Origin: Agapetus fuscipes
Lineage: Eukaryota; Arthropoda; Insecta; Trichoptera; Glossosomatidae
Reading direction: 5' to 3'
DNA: 64,000 bases
NCBI GenBank assembly: GCA_951799405.1
Contig: OX637356.1
Coordinates: 12,609,229-12,673,228, forward strand
Shown: piece by piece, positions 4,922 to 61,567 of the stretch
Numbering within the stretch: the first letter of the stretch is position 1
How the letters are laid out: each line of letters starts with the position of its first letter
Notes under the pieces: generated by a model
What the model was told of the DNA's origin: nothing
Seen by the model: only the letters and a program-made list of their open reading frames with translations
The model's database searches: none
Translations under genes and position numbers: made by a program

Positions 4922-5233
4922 AAACGCAAAAAAACGCAAGTAAGCTACACATATAGTGTAACTTATTGCCGTGTTATCCCCAAAAGGGTCGCATGTGGCG
5001 AGTTGAACCTATTTATCAGGTAAGGGGCGCGGCCTCACGCCAACCACTTCAGTTAAAGTGGGGGTTTCCCAACTCCCGAGGGGGCTGGTACTCATTTCTT
5101 GTGAAAGCTGAGTAAATCTTACCGGTATTTTATTTTGGTGTTTGAAATAAATTATTTCTGACACCCTCAGTGGGATTCGAACTCGAGCTCACGGTATGGA
5201 GTGCAAGCACTCTACCAACTGAGCTATCGACCA
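4922..5233 (-). mobile_element. tRNA-SINE C, near full length
   Basis: On the minus strand this runs from the tRNA head (A box TAGCTCAGTTGG; B box GTTCGAATCC) to the GCGTT-rich tail. The central palindrome CACTTTAACTGAAGTGG is nearly kept. It ends 78 bp before an RTE-type LINE fragment on the opposite strand. Pol III transcription of the original element is expected from the boxes. Confidence 0.9.
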
Positions 5234-14337: not shown

Positions 14338-14750
14338 GGTATGTCAAAAAGTTAAATGAAAATTAGCACCCTCAGTGGAATGAAACGGGGCTGAAAGAAA
14401 ATATACAAAACGTAATCATTGTACGGGTTTGAATTAAGGATTTTCTGTAGAATCTAGATCGATTAAGTTATAGATCGTGCGATTCAGTTTCCAATAGACC
14501 CAGGTAATATTATAATTAGGATCTCGCTTTGTATACTAAATAGGAGGAAGGTATTCCGAAAAAGGAATAAGGGAGATCGGACCGAATTGTTAATTTGAAT
14601 TAACATAAAACTTCGCTTAGCCCGACTGAAAATTAAACCGGTCTACAGTCGCTATAAAAGTAAGGTTTTTACCATTTCCCACGAAGGCAATTATTCGCAC
14701 GTTACGCCACTGGCGGAGTAATTGCTCGTAAAAGTAAAAATGCTGAGTTT
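14338..14750. other. Unassigned sequence
   Basis: Nothing recognised. Confidence 0.4.
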
Positions 14751-15007
14751 CCTTGACTTATAGGTTGGTATGCGGCTGACCACCCATGCTGTAAACATGG
14801 TTCACTTTGCCAATGTCACCCCTGTCTCAGGAAAGGACGGCAAGAGTTGTAGGGGTGTATGTCCATTTGAGATTTGGTTTATGTGTTGTAGGTTCACATG
14901 CGGCATGTGCAAGCGCGAACTTGTACGTGTCTGCTTGTCAGAATGCATGTGATGCGAATGCCTAATATCACATACGAGTATCTTTGCAACTTAGATTAGA
15001 TTAGATT
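14751..15007 (+). mobile_element. Family A element, full length
   Basis: This runs from CCTTGACTTATAGGTTGG to ACTTAGATTAGATTAGATT. It has the conserved hairpins CCCTGTCTCAGG and CACATGCGGCATGTG. The 5' start matches most solo copies, although flanks differ. Confidence 0.92.
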
Positions 15008-15335: not shown

Positions 15336-15530
15336 TTGGGGTACTGGGTGGTTAAATATTTAAAGAAGGCTTGTCAGTGGCTAGAGGGCAATGACCTAAG
15401 ATACAAACTTGACAATGCAAGTAGCTTCATCCTAGCAAAGTGAATTATACATGACTCTAATGTAAAATGACTGGCTTTGTGGACGAGAAATGATGAAGTC
15501 TCCCCGTTTTTGTCTTGCCACAAATGATCT

Positions 15531-15832
15531 TATAGTGTAACTTCTAGCCGGCGTTATCCTCAAAGGTGTCGCATGCGGCAAATTGGGACCTATTTTTTTT
15601 ACGTGTAAGGGAGCCGGCCTCATGCAAACCACTTCTGTTGAAGTGTGGGTTTCCCAGCTCCCGAGGGGGCTGGTTTTCATTTCTTGTGAAGGCTGAGTAA
15701 GCTTTGCCGGTGTAAATTTTGAGTTTGAAATAAACACTGACATGGGAAACCATTTCTGGCACCCTCAGTGGGGAATGAACTCTTGCTCTTGGCATCGAAA
15801 GTAAGCATTCTACCAACTGAGCTATCAATCGG
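15531..15832 (-). mobile_element. tRNA-SINE C, near full length
   Basis: On the minus strand: head TAGCTCAGTTGGTAGAATGC, body, CACTTCAACAGAAGTGG palindrome and 3' end. The B box is damaged (GAGTTCATTCC). It directly follows an E copy on the same strand. Confidence 0.88.
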
Positions 15833-15841
15833 AATATTTAC

Positions 15842-16048
15842 TAGCTTGTTCGTTGCAACAAAGCACCAATTTTCGAGCAGACTCGATGTTTTGGTGACCG
15901 GTCTTTGATAAACATCCATAATTTTTTTTAACCCAGCGAAGAGCATATTTGAAAACATTAATGATATCCATTTGTGCTCCACAGAGATTCGAACCCACGA
16001 CCTTCCATTTACGAACCCGTCACATTACCACTAGACTAAAGACCGGTC
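15842..16048 (-). mobile_element. 5S-tRNA SINE (E), tRNA head and body
   Basis: It has a B box (GGTTCGAATCT) and a tRNA-like head ending near ACCGGTC, then the AAATATGCTCTTCGCTGG body block and GGTCACC. The 5S head and the 3' tail are absent. Confidence 0.8.
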
Positions 16049-16600
16049 GATGAGCATCTAGACTAGTTCACTCTCTTTCAGAACATCAGATACATTCTTA
16101 TCAAATCCGCGTTGAAAACGGAAATTTCCCCGTTGAAAAACTAGCTTCTTTTTCCTTTTTGTGTTGAGGAGGTAGTCATGTCCTGCATATAAGAACATGG
16201 CAAAAGACTTTAATGTGGTTCGTCTCGCGCCATAATTGGACGGCGGGGAAAGGAGGCTTTTTTCATGAAGCCTTTATGACTCTCACCACCCTCTTGCTTT
16301 GTTTCCCTTATACTCTGATTTAATGTGTATTATAAGAAAATTTAAAATTTTAAGGGAAATACACCTAAGATTTTCTTAATGAAATGTGGGACTTTTATAG
16401 AGGCGCTGCCTGGTTTTCTTGCAATTTTTTTAAAACTACCTTATGTACTTACATCAGGTAAAAACTCACTATGCAAACTATTGTTATAAAATAAAGTTAT
16501 GCTAAGTATGGTTTACGTATTATAACTGAAATCTGTTTTTACTTAAAAATAATAAATAAAACTGAAAATTCATATTTAATCTTTACAAAATTTTGATTAA
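16049..16600. other. Unassigned sequence
   Basis: A short stretch at 16385-16440 (AGAGGCGCTGCCTGG) recalls family R. Otherwise unassigned. Confidence 0.4.
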
Positions 16601-16604
16601 CGCA

Positions 16605-16942
16605 ACGCAACGCAAAAAAAAAACGCAAATAAGCTACACATATAGTGTAACTTCTTGCCGCGTTATCCCCGAAGGGGTCGCATGTGGCGAGTTGAACCTA
16701 TATATTTTTACAGGTAAGGGGGCCGGCCTTACGCCAACCACTTCAGTTGAAGTGGAGGTTTCCCAGCTCTCGAGAGTGCTGGTACTCATTTCTTGTGAAG
16801 GCTGAGTAAGCCTTGCCGGTATTTTATTTTGGGGTTTGAAATAAACACCGAAACGGGAAATCATTTCTGACACCCTCGGTGGGATTCGAACCCGAGCTTT
16901 CGGCATGGAATGCAAGCACTCTACCACCTGAGCTATCGAGCG
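16605..16942 (-). mobile_element. tRNA-SINE C, full length
   Basis: This is one of the best C copies. The head has TAGCTCAGGTGGTAGAG (A box) and GGGTTCGAATCC (B box). The body keeps CCACTTCAACTGAAGTGG and a CCCCTTCGGGG hairpin with a UUCG-type loop. The tail is a (GCGTT)n-like run. A short ATTAAC occurs near both ends and may be a target duplication. Confidence 0.93.
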
Positions 16943-16988
16943 GACTTATTAACAAAAACAATATTATTAAAACACTGTTTTACTTTCA

Positions 16989-17242
16989 TTCTAATCTAAT
17001 CTAATCTAAGTTGCAAAGATATGCAACATTGGGGATTCACATTACATGCATTCTCACAAGCAGACAAGTACAACTTCGCGCTTGAGCATGCCGCATGTGA
17101 ACCTACAACATAAAAACCAAATCTCAAATGGACATACACCCTGCAACTCCTGCCGACCTTCCCTGAAACAGGGGTGACATTGGCAAAGGGAACCATTTTC
17201 TACAGCATGGGTGGTCAGGCGCATACCAACCTATAAGTCAAG
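16989..17242 (-). mobile_element. Family A element, full length
   Basis: This runs from a (TCTAA)n tail through GTTGCAAAGATATG, CACATGCGGCATG and CCTGAAACAGGGG to CCAACCTATAAGTCAAG. Confidence 0.92.
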
Positions 17243-17698
17243 AAAGTCAAAACATTCTCGATATAATTTTTCAGGAATCAAAAATATAATAAACACAGAG
17301 TTTTTAATATTTTTGTTCATTTCATGATAAGGTCATAATTTCTACGCAATCAAATTTGCAAATAAACGAAAGCTAAGATAAGCGAATGAATTGCCTAAAT
17401 GCGGGGAATAAAAATGTTACTTTGCATGCTTACAATATAATTACTCTGGTTGTTCAAATAACCAACGAATTAATTTAGCATTGTGGCAAATAAAATAACG
17501 GCAATAAAAACCTTGATAAAACCTAATTCCTACGGCGAACGTTTATAATTGTGGCAAACAAAAATAATCTGAAGTTCTGTATTGGATTTAATGATGCTGA
17601 AAGCCTGTATTGCTCTACTGTAACTGTTTTTGTTTTCAGCTATGATTCCGCTAGGGGTGGTTACATGCCAGTATTTTTACTTTATTTGTAAGTGAAAG
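17243..17698. other. Unassigned AT-rich sequence
   Basis: Nothing recognised except a TTCCGCTAGGGGTGG phrase near 17648 that recalls the LINE tail at 28100. Confidence 0.4.
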
Positions 17699-17805: not shown

Positions 17806-17862
17806 TCCCCCCCCCCCCCGGCCGGCCCGTCTCCCGGCCCCCGGCCCCCCCGACACATGTTA
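17806..17862. repeat. C-rich low-complexity tract
   Basis: Long C runs with GGCCGGCCCG interruptions sit between a SINE fragment and a foldback arm. The base composition is unlike anything else in the window. It could be real low-complexity DNA or an assembly artefact. Confidence 0.7.
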
Positions 17863-18316
17863 TAACGACATATGACAGAACGACACATGCAAGAACGATT
17901 CATGACAGAACAATACATGACAGAACTTCACAATGACAGTACATCAAATGACAAAACCTCACTATGACAAACAACACAAGGACAAAACATTACAATCCTA
18001 AAGCAGAGCATACCATAAACGGCACATGAAAAAACATCACAAAAATAAAGCCTGTGATCTTTTGTTATTGTGATTTTTTATCATTTGAAGTTCTGTCATG
18101 TGTCTTTTTGTCACTGCGTCGTTCTGTCATGTGTCGTTCTGTCATATGTTGTTCTGTCACGCACCGTTATGCCATGTGTCGTTTTGTCATTTATTGTTCA
18201 GTCATGTGTCATTTTGTCAAGTGTCGTTCTGTCATATGTTGTTCAGTCATGTGCCGTTCAGTCATGTGTCGTTCTGTCATGTGTCGTTTTGTCACTGTGT
18301 GTTCTACAATGGAACC
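17863..18316. mobile_element. Foldback element 2
   Basis: The left arm (about 17863-18035) and right arm (about 18050-18316) are inverted arrays of the same 15-bp unit as foldback element 1. The uninterrupted centre reads ACGGCACATGAAAAAACATC. The right end matches element 1 (CTACAATGGAACC). The left end abuts the C-rich tract and no duplication matching the right flank is seen, so the left boundary is altered. Confidence 0.8.
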
Positions 18317-18635: not shown

Positions 18636-18722
18636 CGTACCGACCGATCCGTAGTCTAGTGGCAACACTTCGGACTCGTAAATAAAAGGTTGTGGGTCGA
18701 ATCCCGGTGGAGCACAAAAAAA
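18636..18722 (+). mobile_element. E-type SINE, tRNA head only
   Basis: A box TAGTCTAGTGGCAAC, anticodon loop region GACTCGTAAAT and a B-like GGTCGAATCCCGG are followed by GGAGCACAAAAA. It then stops. It is too degraded for a tRNA gene. Confidence 0.75.
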
Positions 18723-19127
18723 GCCGCTCATATGGATACAGTTTATTTGGACGTTTCTCGTGTATTCCAGATTCTTCTTTAGTGGATTGTTCCAGAGCAG
18801 TCTACTATCATCAGTTTCATCATTATGCTAGCTGTTTGAGACTATTCCAGTTACGTGCACCAGCAAGCTAGGTGCCTAGGAACCAGGCGCGTGCATAGGG
18901 TATATGCAAATACATTTCAAAATAAATATTTTCTCCCATTCCTTTAAAATAACTCATCTGAAATTGACTGAGGCGCTAACGATGGCTCCAACCGAACTTA
19001 AATTTGGAATTTTAAATCTCATTATTGAACTTATATGCGTTTGTACTATATATTTCCTAACTATCAAACATCTGTGCGTGTATGGGATGCACGCCTCTGC
19101 TAGGTATCACGTACTAATACTCCTATA
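18723..19127. other. Unassigned sequence
   Basis: Nothing recognised; a 74-codon open frame at 18904 lacks motifs. Confidence 0.4.
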
Positions 19128-24845: not shown

Positions 24846-25145
24846 CCGGTTGATAGCTCAGGTGGTAGAGTGCTTGCATTCCACGCCGAAAGCTCGGGTT
24901 CGAATCCCACCGAGGGTGTCAGAAATGATTTCCCGTTTCGGTGTTTATTTCAAACCCCAAAATAAAATACCGTCAAGGTTTACTCAGCCTTCACAAGAAA
25001 TGAGTACCAGCCCCCTCGGGAGCTGGGAAACCCCCCACTTCACTGAAGTGGTTGGCGTAAGGCCGGCCCCCTTACCTGTAAAAATAAATAGGTTCAACTC
25101 GCCACATGCGACCCCTTCGGGGGATAACGCGGCAAGAAGTGACAC
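24846..25145 (+). mobile_element. tRNA-SINE C, full length, intact boxes
   Basis: A box TAGCTCAGGTGG at 24853-24864 and B box GGTTCGAATCC at 24897-24907. The central palindrome reads CCACTTCACTGAAGTGG, with one base lost. The 3' end has CCCCTTCGGGGG and stops within the tail. Confidence 0.93.
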
Positions 25146-25339
25146 AGTGTGAATGGAGTGCATGAGGTGGTTTAATGAATTTTATAAATTGAGTGAGGAA
25201 ATCTAATCTAAGTTGCTCTTTTCGTATCATGCTCAAAACAGGAGCGGGCATCGCGTACAGGCATATGTATCTCAAATGTAGGCAACACACAAATGCTGAA
25301 AAAGCTACAAATAAGTGATGCAACCCTATGGAATCACAC

Positions 25340-33365: not shown

Positions 33366-33514
33366 AATGATAAAAGAAAAACAGTTTTGTTTTCGATTAC
33401 ATGAGTATATTTTTATATACCACAACCGGTTTCACAAACATCCGTTCGAACCGGTTGTGGTATTTAAAAATATACTCATGTAATCGAAAACAAAACTGTT
33501 TTTCTTTTATCATT
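33366..33514. mobile_element. Near-perfect long hairpin (MITE)
   Basis: Arms at 33366-33432 and 33448-33514 are about 67 bp and nearly identical in inverted orientation, with a 15-bp loop. Each arm contains AACCGGTT and ATGAGTATATTTTTA. The low divergence suggests a recent insertion or ongoing homogenisation. No clear flanking duplication. Confidence 0.85.
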
Positions 33515-38040: not shown

Positions 38041-38310
38041 ACTTTGTACCGCGTTGTCCTTGAAGGGTTGCTTGTGGCTTGTGGAGCCTTTTTTTTTCAT
38101 GGCTACAGGGGCCAGACTTACGCCAACCACTTCACTTGTAATGGGGGTTTCCCAGCTATCAAACGGGGTGGTTCTCATCTCTTGCAAAGGCTGAGGAAAG
38201 CTCGTACTAGAGTTTTGAAATAAGCACTGAAACGGGATATCATAACTGACACTATTCGTGGGAATGGAACCCTACCACTCTGGCATAAAATACAAGCATG
38301 CTTCCAACTT
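38041..38310 (-). mobile_element. tRNA-SINE C, diverged
   Basis: CGCGTTGTCCTTGAAGGGTTG to a degraded head (GTGGGAATGGAACCC). Its head lies directly against the head of an E copy on the other strand. Confidence 0.75.
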
Positions 38311-38615
38311 GGACCGGTCCGTAGTTCAGTGGCAACACTTCAGACTCGTAAATGGAAGGTTGTGGATTCGAATCCCGGTGGAGCACAAAAATATACCATT
38401 TATATTTCCAAATGTGCTCTTCGCTGGGTTGAAAAATTCATAAACCTTTACCAAAGACCGGTTACTAAAAGGTCCATCCAACCTTACAGCAACTGGGTCT
38501 TGCTTGAGAATTGGCGTAATCTACAGCGACGTCCAAGCTTGCAGAGGGCTCTTGAAGTGTGATGCACACAAAAACAGTGATCACCAAATAAATCATCCTA
38601 TATTATTATTATTTA
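38311..38615 (+). mobile_element. E SINE, complete from tRNA head to ATT tail
   Basis: A box TAGTTCAGTGG at 38322-38332, anticodon region GACTCGTAA (CGT, Thr-like), B box GATTCGAATCC at 38365-38375. The body follows (AAATGTGCTCTTCGCTGG, AAAGACCGGTTACTAAAAGG), then CTCTTGAAGTGTGATGCAC and a (TATT)n tail. No 5S head: the 5' end abuts a C copy. It gives the reference order for the E body. Confidence 0.92.
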
Positions 38616-39142
38616 ACTGAGGTGTCGAACGATCTCTTGCCAGTAATTTTATTTTGCACCAAAATGGCACACCCTTGATGGAGATCAAACCCTAATCCTA
38701 TTGTTTTGAATGAAAGCTTTTTTTCAACTGACCTATCTACCATACGTAGAATTTCCAAATGAGATAAACAAAATTTCCAGCGATTTTCTCGTGGAATTTC
38801 CAAACGAGATAAACGAACAAATTTCCACCGATAATGAATGCGATAGTGCAATCATTTTGTTTTGGAAATAATTACGGGGATCGAATTTCCAAAATGGAAT
38901 GTGTAACGTGGTAATAAACTGGAATTGATTATCCCGAAAAAGCGGGAAGCTTTTGTTCTGTTTGCATTTACATATTGCATGCACAAAATCCAATTAAAAG
39001 ACCTAGTCCCTTCTATAAATACAAGTACATTTAAAGTTTAGATAAAACGAAAATTTTGATGGAAAAAAGAATTAATCGTACACTGAAATAGTTCTTTCGG
39101 TTTTACCGTGGTCTATTGCTTTTTTTAAGAGAAATAAATACA
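38616..39142. other. Unassigned sequence with short direct repeats
   Basis: AATTTCCAAATGAGATAAAC / AATTTCCAAACGAGATAAAC at about 38753 and 38797 form a short degenerate repeat. Otherwise unassigned. Confidence 0.4.
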
Positions 39143-39232: not shown

Positions 39233-39399
39233 AATAATTCGAATTCAATCAGAAGGTAACAGGGATCTAATGAATTTACTCGCAGCTTAATAACGAAACG
39301 AAAGCAAGAGAAAAAAGAAGAAAATGGAAGACAAAAAAGAGCAATGGACGCCGGTCAAGAGCTAGAATAACAATTTCTTGCATCTGAATAAAAAACTGC

Positions 39400-39722
39400 A
39401 ACTACATAAGCTACACCAACAGCGTAACTTCTTGTCGCGTTCTCCCCAAGGGGATAGCATGTGGCAAGTAAACCTATTTATTTTTACATGTAAGGCAGTA
39501 TTACATCAACCACTTCAGTTGAAATGGAAGTTTCCCAGCTCCCGATGGTGGTAGTATTCATTTCATGGGAAGACTGAGTTTTGAGTAAGCCTTGGCGATA
39601 TTTTATTTCGGGTTGGAAATAAACAGCGAAAACGGGAAATCATTTCTGACACCTTTGGGGGGATTCAAACTCGAGATTTCGGCATGGAATGCAAGCACTC
39701 TACCAACTGAGTTATAGACTGG
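39400..39722 (-). mobile_element. tRNA-SINE C, near full length
   Basis: Tail to head (B box GGATTCAAACTCG damaged; A box TAACTCAGTTGG). It carries a small insertion near TGAGTTTTGAGTAAGCC. Confidence 0.88.
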
Positions 39723-40207: not shown

Positions 40208-40298
40208 ACTTTCTTGTGAAGGCTGAGTAATCCTTTGAGATCGAATCCTTGATCCTCGGCATGTAATGCACGCATTCTACCAATTGAGCTATCGACCT
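40208..40298 (-). mobile_element. tRNA-SINE C, head with large body deletion
   Basis: CTTGTGAAGGCTGAGTAATCC joins directly to the head (ATGTAATGCACGCATTC, TAGCTCAATTGG complement). Confidence 0.72.
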
Positions 40299-40324
40299 TT
40301 TACGAGCTTGATCGTCGTCGCTAC

Positions 40325-40360
40325 TAATCTAATCTAATCTATCTAATCTAAGCTGCAAAG

Positions 40361-40391
<31 letters not shown>

Positions 40392-40600
40392 ATTTAAGAT
40401 TTATATTAAATGCTTTCCCACAAGCAGATATGTATAATTTCGCGCTAACACATGCCGCATGTGGACCTACAATATAAAAACCCAATCTCAAATGAGCATA
40501 AGCCTTGCAACTCTTGCCGTCCTTCCCTGAAACAGGGGTGACATTGGCAAAGTGAACCAATTTTTTACAGTATGGGTGGTCAGCCGCATAACAACCTATA
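40325..40600 (-). mobile_element. Family A joined to LINE 3' UTR
   Basis: (TCTAA)n tail, an (AT)n run at 40362-40387, then the full unit to ACAACCTATAAGTCAAGG. The LINE UTR follows in the same layout as at 51.9 and 62.5 kb. Confidence 0.9.
40362..40387. repeat. AT microsatellite within A
   Basis: (AT)n run replacing the GATATATATC block of A. Confidence 0.9.
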
Positions 40601-40768
40601 AGTCAAGGAACATACATGACAAATTACATTTTTTTTAAATCAATAAATAACAATATATCCATGGACATAAAAAAACTAAATCATAAAACCAATTTTACTT
40701 TAACAAACCCCAGCCGCCAACATCACAGATCAACCGCAATTTCTTTCTATCCTTACATACTTCTTTCA
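40601..40768 (-). pseudogene. LINE 3' UTR and ORF end
   Basis: The minus strand holds the end of the KKWRLICDVGG-type ORF (here with changes) and the UTR that precedes A. It is cut by a 5S-tRNA SINE. Confidence 0.8.
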
Positions 40769-41112
40769 TTCCAAAGCGACAATTCTCAAGCAAGGCCCAG
40801 TTGCTGTATGACTGGATGGACCTTTGGTGACAGGTCATTGGTAAAGGCTTGATGAATTTTTCAACCCAGCGAAGAGCAAATTTGAAAATATAAATGGTAC
40901 CTATGTTTTTTGTGCTCCGCCAGGATTCGAATCCACGACCTTCCATTTACGAGTCCGAAGTGTTGCCACTGGACTACGGACCGGTCCAAGAAATGCCAAC
41001 AACAAGCGGAGTAACCTAGCGGTCACCCATCCAAGTACCATCCGCGCCCAATGTTGCTTAACTTCGGTGATCTGATGAGAACCGGTGCTTTCAACATGGT
41101 ATCGTCGTTGAC
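40769..41112 (-). mobile_element. 5S-tRNA composite SINE (E)
   Basis: On the minus strand: 118-bp 5S head, short linker, tRNA head (TAGTCCAGTGGCAACAC; B box GGATTCGAATCC), body to GGTCCATCCAGTCATAC, ending inside the body at a LINE remnant. Both Pol III internal promoters (5S A/C boxes and tRNA A/B boxes) are present in order. It is truncated at its 3' end. Confidence 0.92.
40995..41112 (-). pseudogene. 5S rRNA-derived SINE head, near complete
   Basis: It is colinear with animal 5S rRNA over the whole length: AACGACGATACCATGTTGAA, ACCGGTTCTCATCAGATC, CCGAAGTTAAGCAACATTGG and GGATGGGTGACCGC. It is not an independent gene, because it runs into a tRNA head and SINE body and lacks a T-run terminator after the 5S part. 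Confidence 0.92.
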
Positions 41113-43090: not shown

Positions 43091-43469
43091 AGCCAAAAAA
43101 ATGGTAGAACTATGGTTATTGAATAAGTAAAAAAAATAATGAACAACCAGTTTAATGAACAAGCTTCACATCGTAAGGTGAAAATCGTGAAAATCATCAC
43201 TTTTTAATTAAAGTTTATTTTCCGCGAAGAAAAAATTACAAGACAAGCCGTCAACTTGTCTTTCATTTATCCGTACCAAACTTCAAGCGGAACCTTCTCA
43301 AACAAACTGCAACTCCTCTGGCTTGACTGGCATTAGCGTATTTTCAATGTTGGAGCGAATGATCGCACGGAGACTTGTGCAAATTTCTGGGAAGTGCGCT
43401 TGGTATGCTGGTTAACGTGTTAACCGCCGGGGACGAGGTATCTGTAATCTAAGTTGCAAAGATACCTAT

Positions 43470-43889
43470 AATAATAATAATACTAGGATGATTTATTTGG
43501 TGAGCGCTGTTTTTGTGTGTATCACACCTCAAGAGCCCTCTGCGAGCTTAGTCGTCGCTGAAGAAAGCGCCAATTCTCTAGACCCAGTTGTTGTAAGGTT
43601 GGATGGACCTTTCAGTGACCAGTCTTTGGTAAAGGTGTATGAATCTTTCAACCCAGCGGAGAGCACATTCGAAATATAAATGGTATATTTTGTGCTCCGC
43701 CGGGATCCGAATCCACAACCTTCCATTTACGAGTCCGAAGTGTTTCCACTACGGACTACGGACCGGTCCAAGATGCCAACGACACGCGGTGTACCTGAGC
43801 GGTTACCCATCCAAGCACTGACCACGCCCAATGTTGCTTAACTTCGGTGATCTATGGGAACCGGTGCTTTCAATATGGTAACGTCGTTG
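43470..43889 (-). mobile_element. 5S-tRNA composite SINE (E), complete with target duplication
   Basis: The 420-bp element is flanked by ACCTAT (43464-43469 and 43890-43895). On the minus strand: 5S head (43775-43889); linker; tRNA head ending at the B box GGATTCGGATCC; body (GAATGTGCTCTCCGCTGGG, AAAGACTGGTCACTGAAAGG, GGCGCTTTCTTCAGCG); GAGGTGTGATACACAC; then an (ATT)n tail. The duplication shows the 5S start is the true 5' end. It presumably used a LINE reverse transcriptase in trans. The A box region of the tRNA head has small changes. Confidence 0.94.
43775..43889 (-). pseudogene. 5S rRNA-derived SINE head
   Basis: CAACGACGTTACCATATTGA, AAAGCACCGGTTCCC, ATCACCGAAGTTAAGCAACA and GGATGGGTAACCGCTC follow the 5S rRNA order over 115 bp. 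The internal promoter boxes are mostly kept. Confidence 0.92.
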
Positions 43890-43916
43890 ACCTATGTATT
43901 GACATTTAAAATTCAT

Positions 43917-44113
43917 TATATTTTTTATGGTTTGTATATTAACACTGTGAAAAAACATGGTTAATCTTTTTTACAAATTTATAGAATAAAGTAGTATTTT
44001 ATAGGAAACACTGTTTTTTATTTCACTTGTATGGTTAAATAAACGAGTGAAATTAAAAAACAGTGTTTCCTAAAAAATACAACTTTATTGTATGAAGTTT
44101 TAAAAAAAGATTA
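43917..44113. mobile_element. Hairpin MITE with 9-bp target duplication
   Basis: Arms (about 43961-44027 and 44046-44113) are inverted copies around AGGAAACACTGTTTTTTATT. AAAATTCAT flanks the element at 43908-43916 and 44114-44122. A related TATTAACACTGTGAAAA phrase occurs near 57805. Confidence 0.82.
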
Positions 44114-44145
44114 AAAATTCATATTAAATGCATGCCAACAAACCT

Positions 44146-51675: not shown

Positions 51676-51936
51676 AGATGGTTTGGGCATATGGAGAGAA
51701 TGAATGAGGAAAGACTGACGAAGAAAGTATATGTTGGTAGAATAGATGGATGTCGTGGTAGAGGAAGACCGAGAAAGGTATGGATGGACCAAATATCCGA
51801 AATTGCGAATGAATGGAATATCCAGAGTCATAATAAAAGAAGAGCTTGTATGAAGAAGGTTATGACTCTGGAGGAAATGAAAGAAGTATGCAAGGATAGA
51901 AAGAAATGGCGGTTGATCTGTGATGTTGGCGGCTAG
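51676..51936 (+). pseudogene. LINE ORF C-terminus (A-tailed LINE), best copy
   Basis: 86 open codons end at TAG: RWFGHMERMNEERLTKKVYV, GRGRPRKVWMDQISEIANEW, KRRACMKKVMTLEEMKEVCK, DRKKWRLICDVGG. This is the basic C-terminal tail found after the reverse transcriptase in many invertebrate non-LTR ORFs. The polymerase core is missing (5' truncation). The 3' UTR and an A unit follow. The other A-tailed loci end in the same residues. Confidence 0.88.
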
Positions 51937-52300
51937 GGTTTGTTAAAGTGAATTTGGTTTTATGATTTAGTTTTTTATGTCCATGTATATATTGTTATTT
52001 TTATTCTTTGATTTTAAAAAATGTAATTTGTAATGTATGTTCCTTGACTTATAGGTTGTTATGCGGCTGACCACCCATAATATAAAAATTGGTTCACTTT
52101 GCCAATGTCACCCCTGTTTCAGGGAAGGACGGCAAGAGTTGCAAGGCTTATGTTCATTTAAGATTGGGTTTTTATATTGTAGGTCCACATGCGGCATGTG
52201 TTAGCGCGAAATTATACATATCTGCTTGTGGGAATGCATTTAGTATAAATCTTAAATGATATATATCTTTGCAGCTTAGATTAGATTAGATTAGATTAGA
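51937..52300 (+). mobile_element. LINE 3' UTR ending in family A
   Basis: The UTR (51937-52042) leads into TTCCTTGACTTATAGG at 52041 and a full A unit ending in (TTAGA)n. The same UTR-A junction occurs at 20.5, 40.6, 56.1 and 62.5 kb. Confidence 0.92.
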
Positions 52301-61261: not shown

Positions 61262-61567
61262 ATAATAATAATAATATTAGGATGATTTATTTGGTGAGCG
61301 TTGTTTTTGTGTGTATCACACCTCAAGAGCCCTCTGCGAGCTTGGTCGTCACTGTAGAAAGCGCCAATTCTCAAGCAAGACCCAATTGTTGTAAGGTTGG
61401 ATGGACCTTTCAGTGACCGGTCTTTGGTAAAGGTTTATGAATTTTTCAACTCAGCGAAGAGCACATTCGAAATATAAATGGTATATTTTTTGTGCTCCGC
61501 CGGGATCCGAATCCACAACCTTCCATTTAAGAGTCCGAAGTGTTGCCACTGGACTACAAACCGGTCT
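61262..61567 (-). mobile_element. E SINE, tRNA head to ATT tail
   Basis: Minus strand: head TAGTCCAGTGGCAACAC, B box GGATTCGGATCC, complete body and (ATT)n tail. AAGTA flanks it on both sides (weak, 5 bp). No 5S head: it starts at the tRNA part, so headless copies can end exactly there. Confidence 0.9.

Follow-up and report, generated by a model that had tools for sequence, protein, structure and literature searches.

Study of the 64-kb window (the whole stretch of DNA that was analysed) and of copies fetched from the genome revealed an element of ~422 bp, E1, in which a 5S rRNA head is followed by a short linker, a tRNA-related segment, a body and an (ATT)n tail. It is short, without evident gene and dispersed in many copies, i.e. 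it is a SINE. The 5′ ends of the copies examined are bimodal: they fall either at 5S base 1 or within the seven bases immediately behind the 5S. The explanation that we favour as a whole, with a probability of about 0.63, is that a host 5S gene was joined to an older tRNA SINE, which would have placed two Pol III starts in series.

The unit at 43470-43891 and related loci in the window

The sequence-only reading had described one unit here, with 5S-like and tRNA-like segments, a body and an (ATT)n tail between ACCTAT direct repeats. This unit is present where it was placed, with all of these parts, on the minus strand (Table 1). Its 5S head (43891-43774) aligns with positions 1-120 of the Rfam 5S_rRNA model (RF00001) at 83.2 bits, the gathering score being 38. 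The target duplication abuts 5S base 1 and is 4-6 bp long, depending on whether 5S bases 1-2 are counted as shared (ATAGGT) or not (ATAG). Since a repeat of at least 4 bp is found in ~5% of random boundary pairs, E1 alone proves little, and it is the genome copies that carry the proof. When joined, the flanks of E1 show a weak likeness to the 3′ end of an older LINE: the match reaches 13 bits (E 1.6e-5) and has a gap of 7 bases close to the junction; by blastn it is 84% over 51 bp. Judging from this weak match, the element that received E1 in its 3′ end seems to be a LINE family B copy.

Table 1. Positions of the SINE copies, of their parts and of neighbouring elements in the window
Feature	Position	Strand	Basis or remark
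E1, complete 5S-tRNA SINE	43470..43891	(-)	5S match 83.2 bits, window copies, genome matches
E1 5S rRNA head	43774..43891	(-)	RF00001 positions 1-120; first base G = 43891
E1 linker + tRNA-related segment	43690..43773	(-)	relaxed B box GATTCGGATCC; boundaries approximate
E1 body	43484..43689	(-)	alignment with C38 and C61
E1 (ATT)n tail	43470..43483	(-)	
E1 target duplication, 5′ side	43890..43895	(-)	ACCTAT on + strand; overlaps 5S bases 1-2
E1 target duplication, 3′ side	43464..43469	(-)	ACCTAT on + strand
E2 5S head	40994..41112	(-)	88.9 bits, full 5S
E2 linker, tRNA segment, body to LINE insertion	40773..40993	(-)	A box TAGTCCAGTGG, B box GATTCGAATCC
LINE family B 3′ fragment inside E2, foreign to the SINE	40328..40770	(-)	
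E2 body resumed, then head of SINE family C	40240..40327	(-)	as in 20/20 fetched composite copies
C14	14078..14340	(+)	5S cut at ~base 47, then half of the tRNA segment, 63 nt from a LINE coding sequence and the SINE tail
C38, without 5S, tRNA-side start	38310..38614	(+)	target duplication AACT at 38306-38309 and 38615-38618
C61, without 5S	61262..61567	(-)	target duplication ACTT or TACTT
C16, old, without 5S	15839..16052	(-)	family C element directly behind
C18, tRNA segment only, without 5S	18642..18726	(+)	
SINE family C copies	4928-5232, 16617-16945, 24846-25151, 39397-39721 and others		
LINE family B fragments	14749-15007, 17002-17245, 40328-40770, 51841-52299 and others		

No tRNA was called by ARAGORN in the tRNA-related segment, and cmscan with the Rfam tRNA model gave none for the head of E2, even at E<=10; the segment is called tRNA-related because A and B boxes lie in it at tRNA spacing. 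With a B-box pattern that was relaxed after the copies had been seen, there are seven such pairs in the window and none in 60 first-order Markov resamples, four of them belonging to the 5S-tRNA SINE (C18, C38, C61 and E2) and the other three to family C, which is likewise a SINE with a tRNA head. The A box of E1 is interrupted by a 2-base insertion, so that E1 has no intact A box. The head as a whole appears to come from Pol III genes, its 5S part by the full-length match to RF00001 and by the host gene, its tRNA part by the A and B boxes only. A 5S head with putative boxes A, IE and C stands at the 5′ end, as in SINE3 elements: in what we take to be the positions of these boxes, A and IE are unchanged relative to the host 5S in the majority line, and box C differs at 96-97 and varies at 89.

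A junction pattern, GTTGGCA-N(0-12)-GACCGGTCCG, occurs twice in the window, in E1 and E2 (mean 0.00 in 100 shuffles), and a profile search with the 5S head matched E1, E2 and C14 only, the next matches having E >=0.41. Chance adjacency of 5S and tRNA is ruled out, the same junction being found at three window loci and in genome copies. E1 and E2 are 87.3% identical in the 5S and 88.7% in tRNA plus body. In the 150 bases before C38, C61, C16, C18, C45 or C50 there is no match to the 5S profile. Eight more loci of the window have tRNA or body parts and no 5S, two of which (C1 and C27) are also without the tRNA part and are uninformative on the 5S. C38 lies inside a family C SINE, whose sequence continues gap-free across the junction when the flanks are joined (E=7.7e-54), with AACT as the duplicated site.

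C14 is a chimera of more than one template: half of a 5S-tRNA head, 63 nt from the 3′ part of a LINE coding sequence and the SINE tail. The LINE piece ends where the SINE tail begins, and it provided the sole candidate for a partner LINE that was tried. The idea that the SINE tail derives from this LINE was withdrawn, since two LINE copies, L115 and L116 (open frames of 1056 and 1048 aa, the last 60 residues identical), match the 63 nt only and have different 3′ ends; with this one candidate, no partner LINE was found for the 5S-tRNA SINE. A DNA search of the genome with the piece gave, over its coding part, only C14 itself among 40 scored matches. The C-terminal peptide of the L115/L116 LINE has 73 matches among 150 scored in the genome, and the LINE of the C14 piece is an abundant one.

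The window also contains many 3′ fragments of LINE family B, which carry a (TTAGA)n tail; a profile was built from an alignment of 15 of them. A 15-base unit (ACACATGACAGAACG type) forms arrays at 741-939 and 17851-18305, where it is found in both orientations, and two inverted repeats, at 43961-44114 (near E1, 85% self-complementary) and 33366-33514 (91%), are possibly hairpin transposons. Pfam found 0 families in eight ORFs of the window, and pattern scans of viral contigs and of genome contigs gave 0 matches. Protein searches returned 13, 0 and 9 matches; those with an organism name are lepidopteran, which points to an insect-like host, perhaps one of the Lepidoptera.

Genome copies and their two classes of 5′ end

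The genome (G000, 618 Mb in 148 contigs) was searched with a 426-base E1 query, which gave 6638 first-look candidates, unverified as copies. Further full-length copies, as expected by the sequence-only reading, do exist: the best 40 of these candidates, which were scored and include E1, all span at least bases 9-416 of the query, with 95-100% identity and on many contigs. A full or near-full 5S is present at 45 of 60 fetched loci (E1 included), 30 of the 60 having been picked with a 5S-containing query; like all our copy samples, these came from the top-ranked 40 for each query. The proposal that this lineage has a 5S-tRNA SINE of its own is supported by these loci.

The ends of the copies are precise and carry target-site duplications. 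In 55 copies with full 5S (E1 included) the end repeats have a mean length of 3.2 bp versus 2.4 bp when permuted, and none of 500 permutations reached as high a value (0/300 in an earlier count of 45 copies). Where present, the duplications are of 3-7 bp, which is short for a SINE; no repeat of at least 3 bp is found in 13 of the 55. For 16 copies without 5S (one of 17 was dropped, its tail not being found), 8/500 permutations were as high with wide slack and 1/500 with narrow slack. This significance was reached only after the tail rule had been mended, earlier counts of 49/300 and 94/500 (with tail ends misplaced in newer loci) being not significant. Joining the flanks shows an older repeat that can be followed across the insertion point at 7 of the 60 loci; the 5S is full at four of them (L002, L006, L030 and L035), truncated at two (L040 and L041) and absent from one (L036). 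The copies examined are thus true insertions from 5S base 1, with short and variable duplications, and the 5S is the real start of the element, as had been claimed for E1.

The positions of the 5′ ends were studied in two kinds of samples, which overlap in a few loci. One was obtained with the 3′ half of the C61 body as query: 40 matches were scored, the 39 others were fetched, and these became 32 when eight loci with one flank in common were counted once. In this sample 14 copies start at 5S bases 1-9, 6 at 10-118, 9 at 119-125 and 3 later. Scattered truncation would be expected to put ~0.25 starts in the seven bases 119-125 (P=8e-12 for the nine observed), and is ruled out by this hotspot as the cause of the short copies. 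The eight loci counted once (L077, L081, L082, L083, L086, L087, L090 and L099) are all cut at reference base 54; since they have one upstream flank in common, their SINE copy is apparently carried within a larger repeat.

The other samples were chosen on tRNA plus body. The C61-like sample has 38 copies (a 39th row, near a contig end, was dropped); 19 are full, 8 are cut within the 5S and 11 are short; for 39 E1-like copies the numbers are 24, 4 and 11, two of the four cut ones starting at 116 and 118, so that they could count as short. The two samples together have 77 non-self copies, of which 43 run through the whole 5S, 12 are truncated within it and 22 have a tRNA-side start. So the 5S and tRNA parts are joined in many copies, as the sequence-only reading had it, but not always. 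The A box bears the 2-base insertion in most E1-type copies and is intact in 36 of 38 of the C61 type. A link between A-box damage and the 5S start had been expected and was not borne out (Fisher 0.44 and 0.79, the latter for short versus full starts, 11 and 24 in the E1 type against 11 and 19 in the C61 type).

Counted on the reference sequence, the short start is located 10-16 bases before the A box; in termite SINEs, the part of the literature available to us gives a start 5-11 bp before it (PMC9191728). The short 5′ ends also lie at the edge of the 5S fold, whose helix I has, on average, 8.7 of its 9 pairs in the SINE copies.

For the copies examined, the tRNA and body sequences indicate that both discrete 5′ ends arise repeatedly from the same sequences. 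A tree was made of 62 tRNA+body sequences, in which six copies with truncated 5S were treated as 5S-bearing. It takes 9 changes to account for the ten 5S-less rows (9.2 when shuffled), and a single clade for them is rejected (p-AU 0.0004), most branches being weak (41/51 open). One 5S-less copy, L048, has exactly the tRNA plus body of five copies whose 5S is full or near-full; another, L036, is identical in this part to two copies with truncated 5S. The scatter of the rows and these identities argue that the short form was repeatedly made from long-form sequences.

Source of the 5S head and an older relative

In the genome, 47 matches to RF00001 were scored, at 98.0-114.1 bits; the highest-scoring of them, L061, is a SINE copy. 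Fifteen of the loci were fetched, L061 and 14 that read as host 5S genes; in the fetched loci 19 identical reads of the host 5S were obtained (some genes lay in two loci that overlap and were read twice). Most of them are followed by T-rich sequence, as working genes are. Between 6.42 and 7.05 Mb of contig C28 the 5S matches are scattered on both strands, often as facing pairs, with no evident single tandem array, and further ones among the 47 are on several other contigs.

The SINE heads of E1, E2 and L012 score 82-89 bits against RF00001. Changes of the SINE 5S relative to that of the host were scored in 45 full copies, which are of one class because each had been chosen for its resemblance to E1 or C61, and the changes fall into layers. 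Common to the 45 copies, E2, C14 and L061 are 111T (44/45) and 119A. Found in the 45 and in E2 are 2T (42/45), 10G, 37A, 40A (44/45) and 100T, and present in 45/45 each and absent from E2 are 11T, 35C, the loss of 39, 96C and 97A. C14, which can be read from base 47 on, has 100T, and 97A in an ambiguous stretch. The change 111T restores the helix I pair A8-U111, which is A-C in the host. L061 (contig C26, 7490393-7490511) has a 5S that is 98.3% identical to that of the host, followed by a tRNA segment and body, and its 3′ end is of a third kind, like that of the window copy C1; by its sequence it is an early form of the 5S-tRNA SINE. The shared, layered changes, together with the host-like 5S of L061, suggest that the fusion took place once and that the head was then altered stepwise, i.e. 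the 5S head seems to have been taken once from a host 5S gene and then changed in layers. For the copies examined, the sequences thus point to one family, one 5S origin and descent of the head within the family. Differences of E1 and E2 from fly and human 5S at positions 17, 19, 59, 61 and 63 had been considered as proof of common descent and were discarded, being features of the host.

Family C is a SINE of ~300 bp with 31 profile matches in the window, weak ones included. The body of E2 and that of C16 are joined at the same base (..GTAAA) to a family C head, in minus-strand composites that occupy 40240-41112 and 15525-16052, respectively. This junction was thought to be rare, which proved wrong: in a search with the C16 junction 40 matches were scored, and all the 39 others cross into family C, having begun in the body at query bases 1-24 of its 68-base body part. 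In 20 fetched composite copies (L153-L172) the body precedes family C in 20/20. A 5S match was found in 0/20, and since these copies were picked by likeness to the 5S-less C16, this number is no measure of how frequent the 5S is in that composite. In 11 of the 20 the alignment starts at E2 bases 120-127, eight bases that correspond to the tRNA-side start. Such 5S-less composites indicate that the tRNA-side start was in use without any 5S. Judging from these junctions, the body/family C composite is an abundant and older unit with two tRNA-type heads, and E2 is a 5S head placed on it; with the 5S before the composite, E2 would have three Pol III heads.

Competing explanations and comparison with known SINEs

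In the mechanism proposed here the element would be a short retroposon, presumably copied by a LINE, whose 5′ end combines a host 5S rRNA gene with an older tRNA-headed SINE. Pol III would make a long RNA, starting at 5S base 1, from the 5S-type internal promoter, and a short RNA from the tRNA-type A/B-box promoter; the two would have the body and the (ATT)n end in common, and both would be inserted by the LINE reverse transcriptase. Two Pol III promoters in series are what the sequence-only reading had seen, and it is likewise from the sequence that we infer them. For the more demanding version, that one SINE has two working Pol III promoters of different types as alternative starts and yields two retrotransposition-competent RNAs, the 5S module having been added before an older and still active start, we would give even odds. 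The two-promoter mechanism is weakened because E1-type copies, most of which have the A-box insertion, show the short start no less often than the C61 type, where a simple tRNA-promoter model would lead one to expect it less frequently. The changed box C of the 5S, the 13 full copies lacking an end repeat of at least 3 bp and the negative result for a partner LINE also speak against it. That A-box damage leaves the share of short copies unlowered is in favour of the main rival, which is possible, though in our opinion unlikely, namely that there is one long Pol III transcript from the 5S and that the folded 5S halts the reverse transcriptase at its 3′ base, or that the RNA is cut at this point. 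Short starts at reference 119-125, just past the well-paired helix I, are consistent with it, and stops do occur, given the 12 of 77 copies truncated within the 5S. However, 43 of the 77 read through the whole 5S, and the older 5S-less relatives (C16, C18 and the family C composite) begin nearby and would need a start of their own. As for a cut in the RNA, the starts precede the predicted base 1 of the tRNA (~reference 128 by our own count), where a cut by RNase P would fall.

Another possibility is that a tRNA SINE and a 5S-tRNA SINE exist as two separate families, which have the body in common but are copied from different masters. The 5S-less relatives (C16, C18, C45, C50 and the family C composite) could be taken in this way, but we consider it improbable, because the 5S-less label is random over the E1/C61-class tree, weak as most of its branches are, and because the tRNA and body of L048 are exactly those of 5S-bearing copies. 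A new joining of the 5S each time, by template switching from the host 5S rRNA, is what the available part of one report suggests for the insect SINE HaSE3 (PMC3272025), and the nearly host-like 5S of L061 might be read along these lines. Yet L061 already has 111T and 119A, and the nested changes, common to SINE 5S heads and absent from host genes, are not predicted by independent capture; repeated capture is rejected for the copies examined, and as an explanation of the family we find it barely credible. The favoured explanation, a host 5S gene joined to an older tRNA SINE, is of interest in that the gain and swap of Pol III heads in SINEs have mostly been reconstructed from old, decayed families, while here one genome holds host 5S genes, an early copy with near-intact 5S, an intermediate, a young abundant form and an older 5S-less relative. 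The copies record the start of an RNA or cDNA and would therefore provide a readout of the choice between type 1 and type 2 Pol III promoters in one unit.

SINEs with fused heads made of two small-RNA-derived parts include the Tu type and GarnAlu, whose parts, as far as the accessible text goes, involve 7SL RNA and not 5S (PMC7245038). A 5S-derived head in an insect SINE is known from SINE3-1_TC of Tribolium (PMC7245038, PMC3272025), from HaSE3 of Helicoverpa and from PxSE4 and PxSE5 of Plutella (PMC3272025, PMC8010984), again according to the portions of these papers available to us; the likeness of SINE3-1_TC to the present element is by description. HaSE3 has its body and tail in common with the tRNA SINE HaSE1; the part of the report at hand describes it as composed of a 5S part and the 3′ region of HaSE1 and attributes this to template switching (PMC3272025). 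By this description the two elements are set apart: in HaSE3 the 5S replaces the tRNA head, whereas here the sequence indicates that the tRNA head was kept behind the 5S. In the literature searched, as far as its text was accessible, there is no description of an insect SINE that has a 5S head and a tRNA head in series.

The 5S-tRNA order itself is known from AmnSINE1, reportedly the subject of Nishihara et al. 2006, and what is uncommon here is the bimodality of the 5′ starts. This amniote element has, according to the sections available, a 5S rRNA-derived promoter, a tRNA-derived region, a body and a 3′ tail in this order (PMC3234267; it is also covered in PMC12015672), so that the 5S and tRNA parts are in series and in the same order as in the SINE described here; two classes of 5′ end are not reported for it in the portions of the literature examined. 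AmnSINE1 has the vertebrate Deu-domain as its body (PMC3234267, in the part accessible), whereas the present element has an (ATT)n tail, resides in an insect-type genome and is represented by copies that are near-identical and, for this reason, recent.
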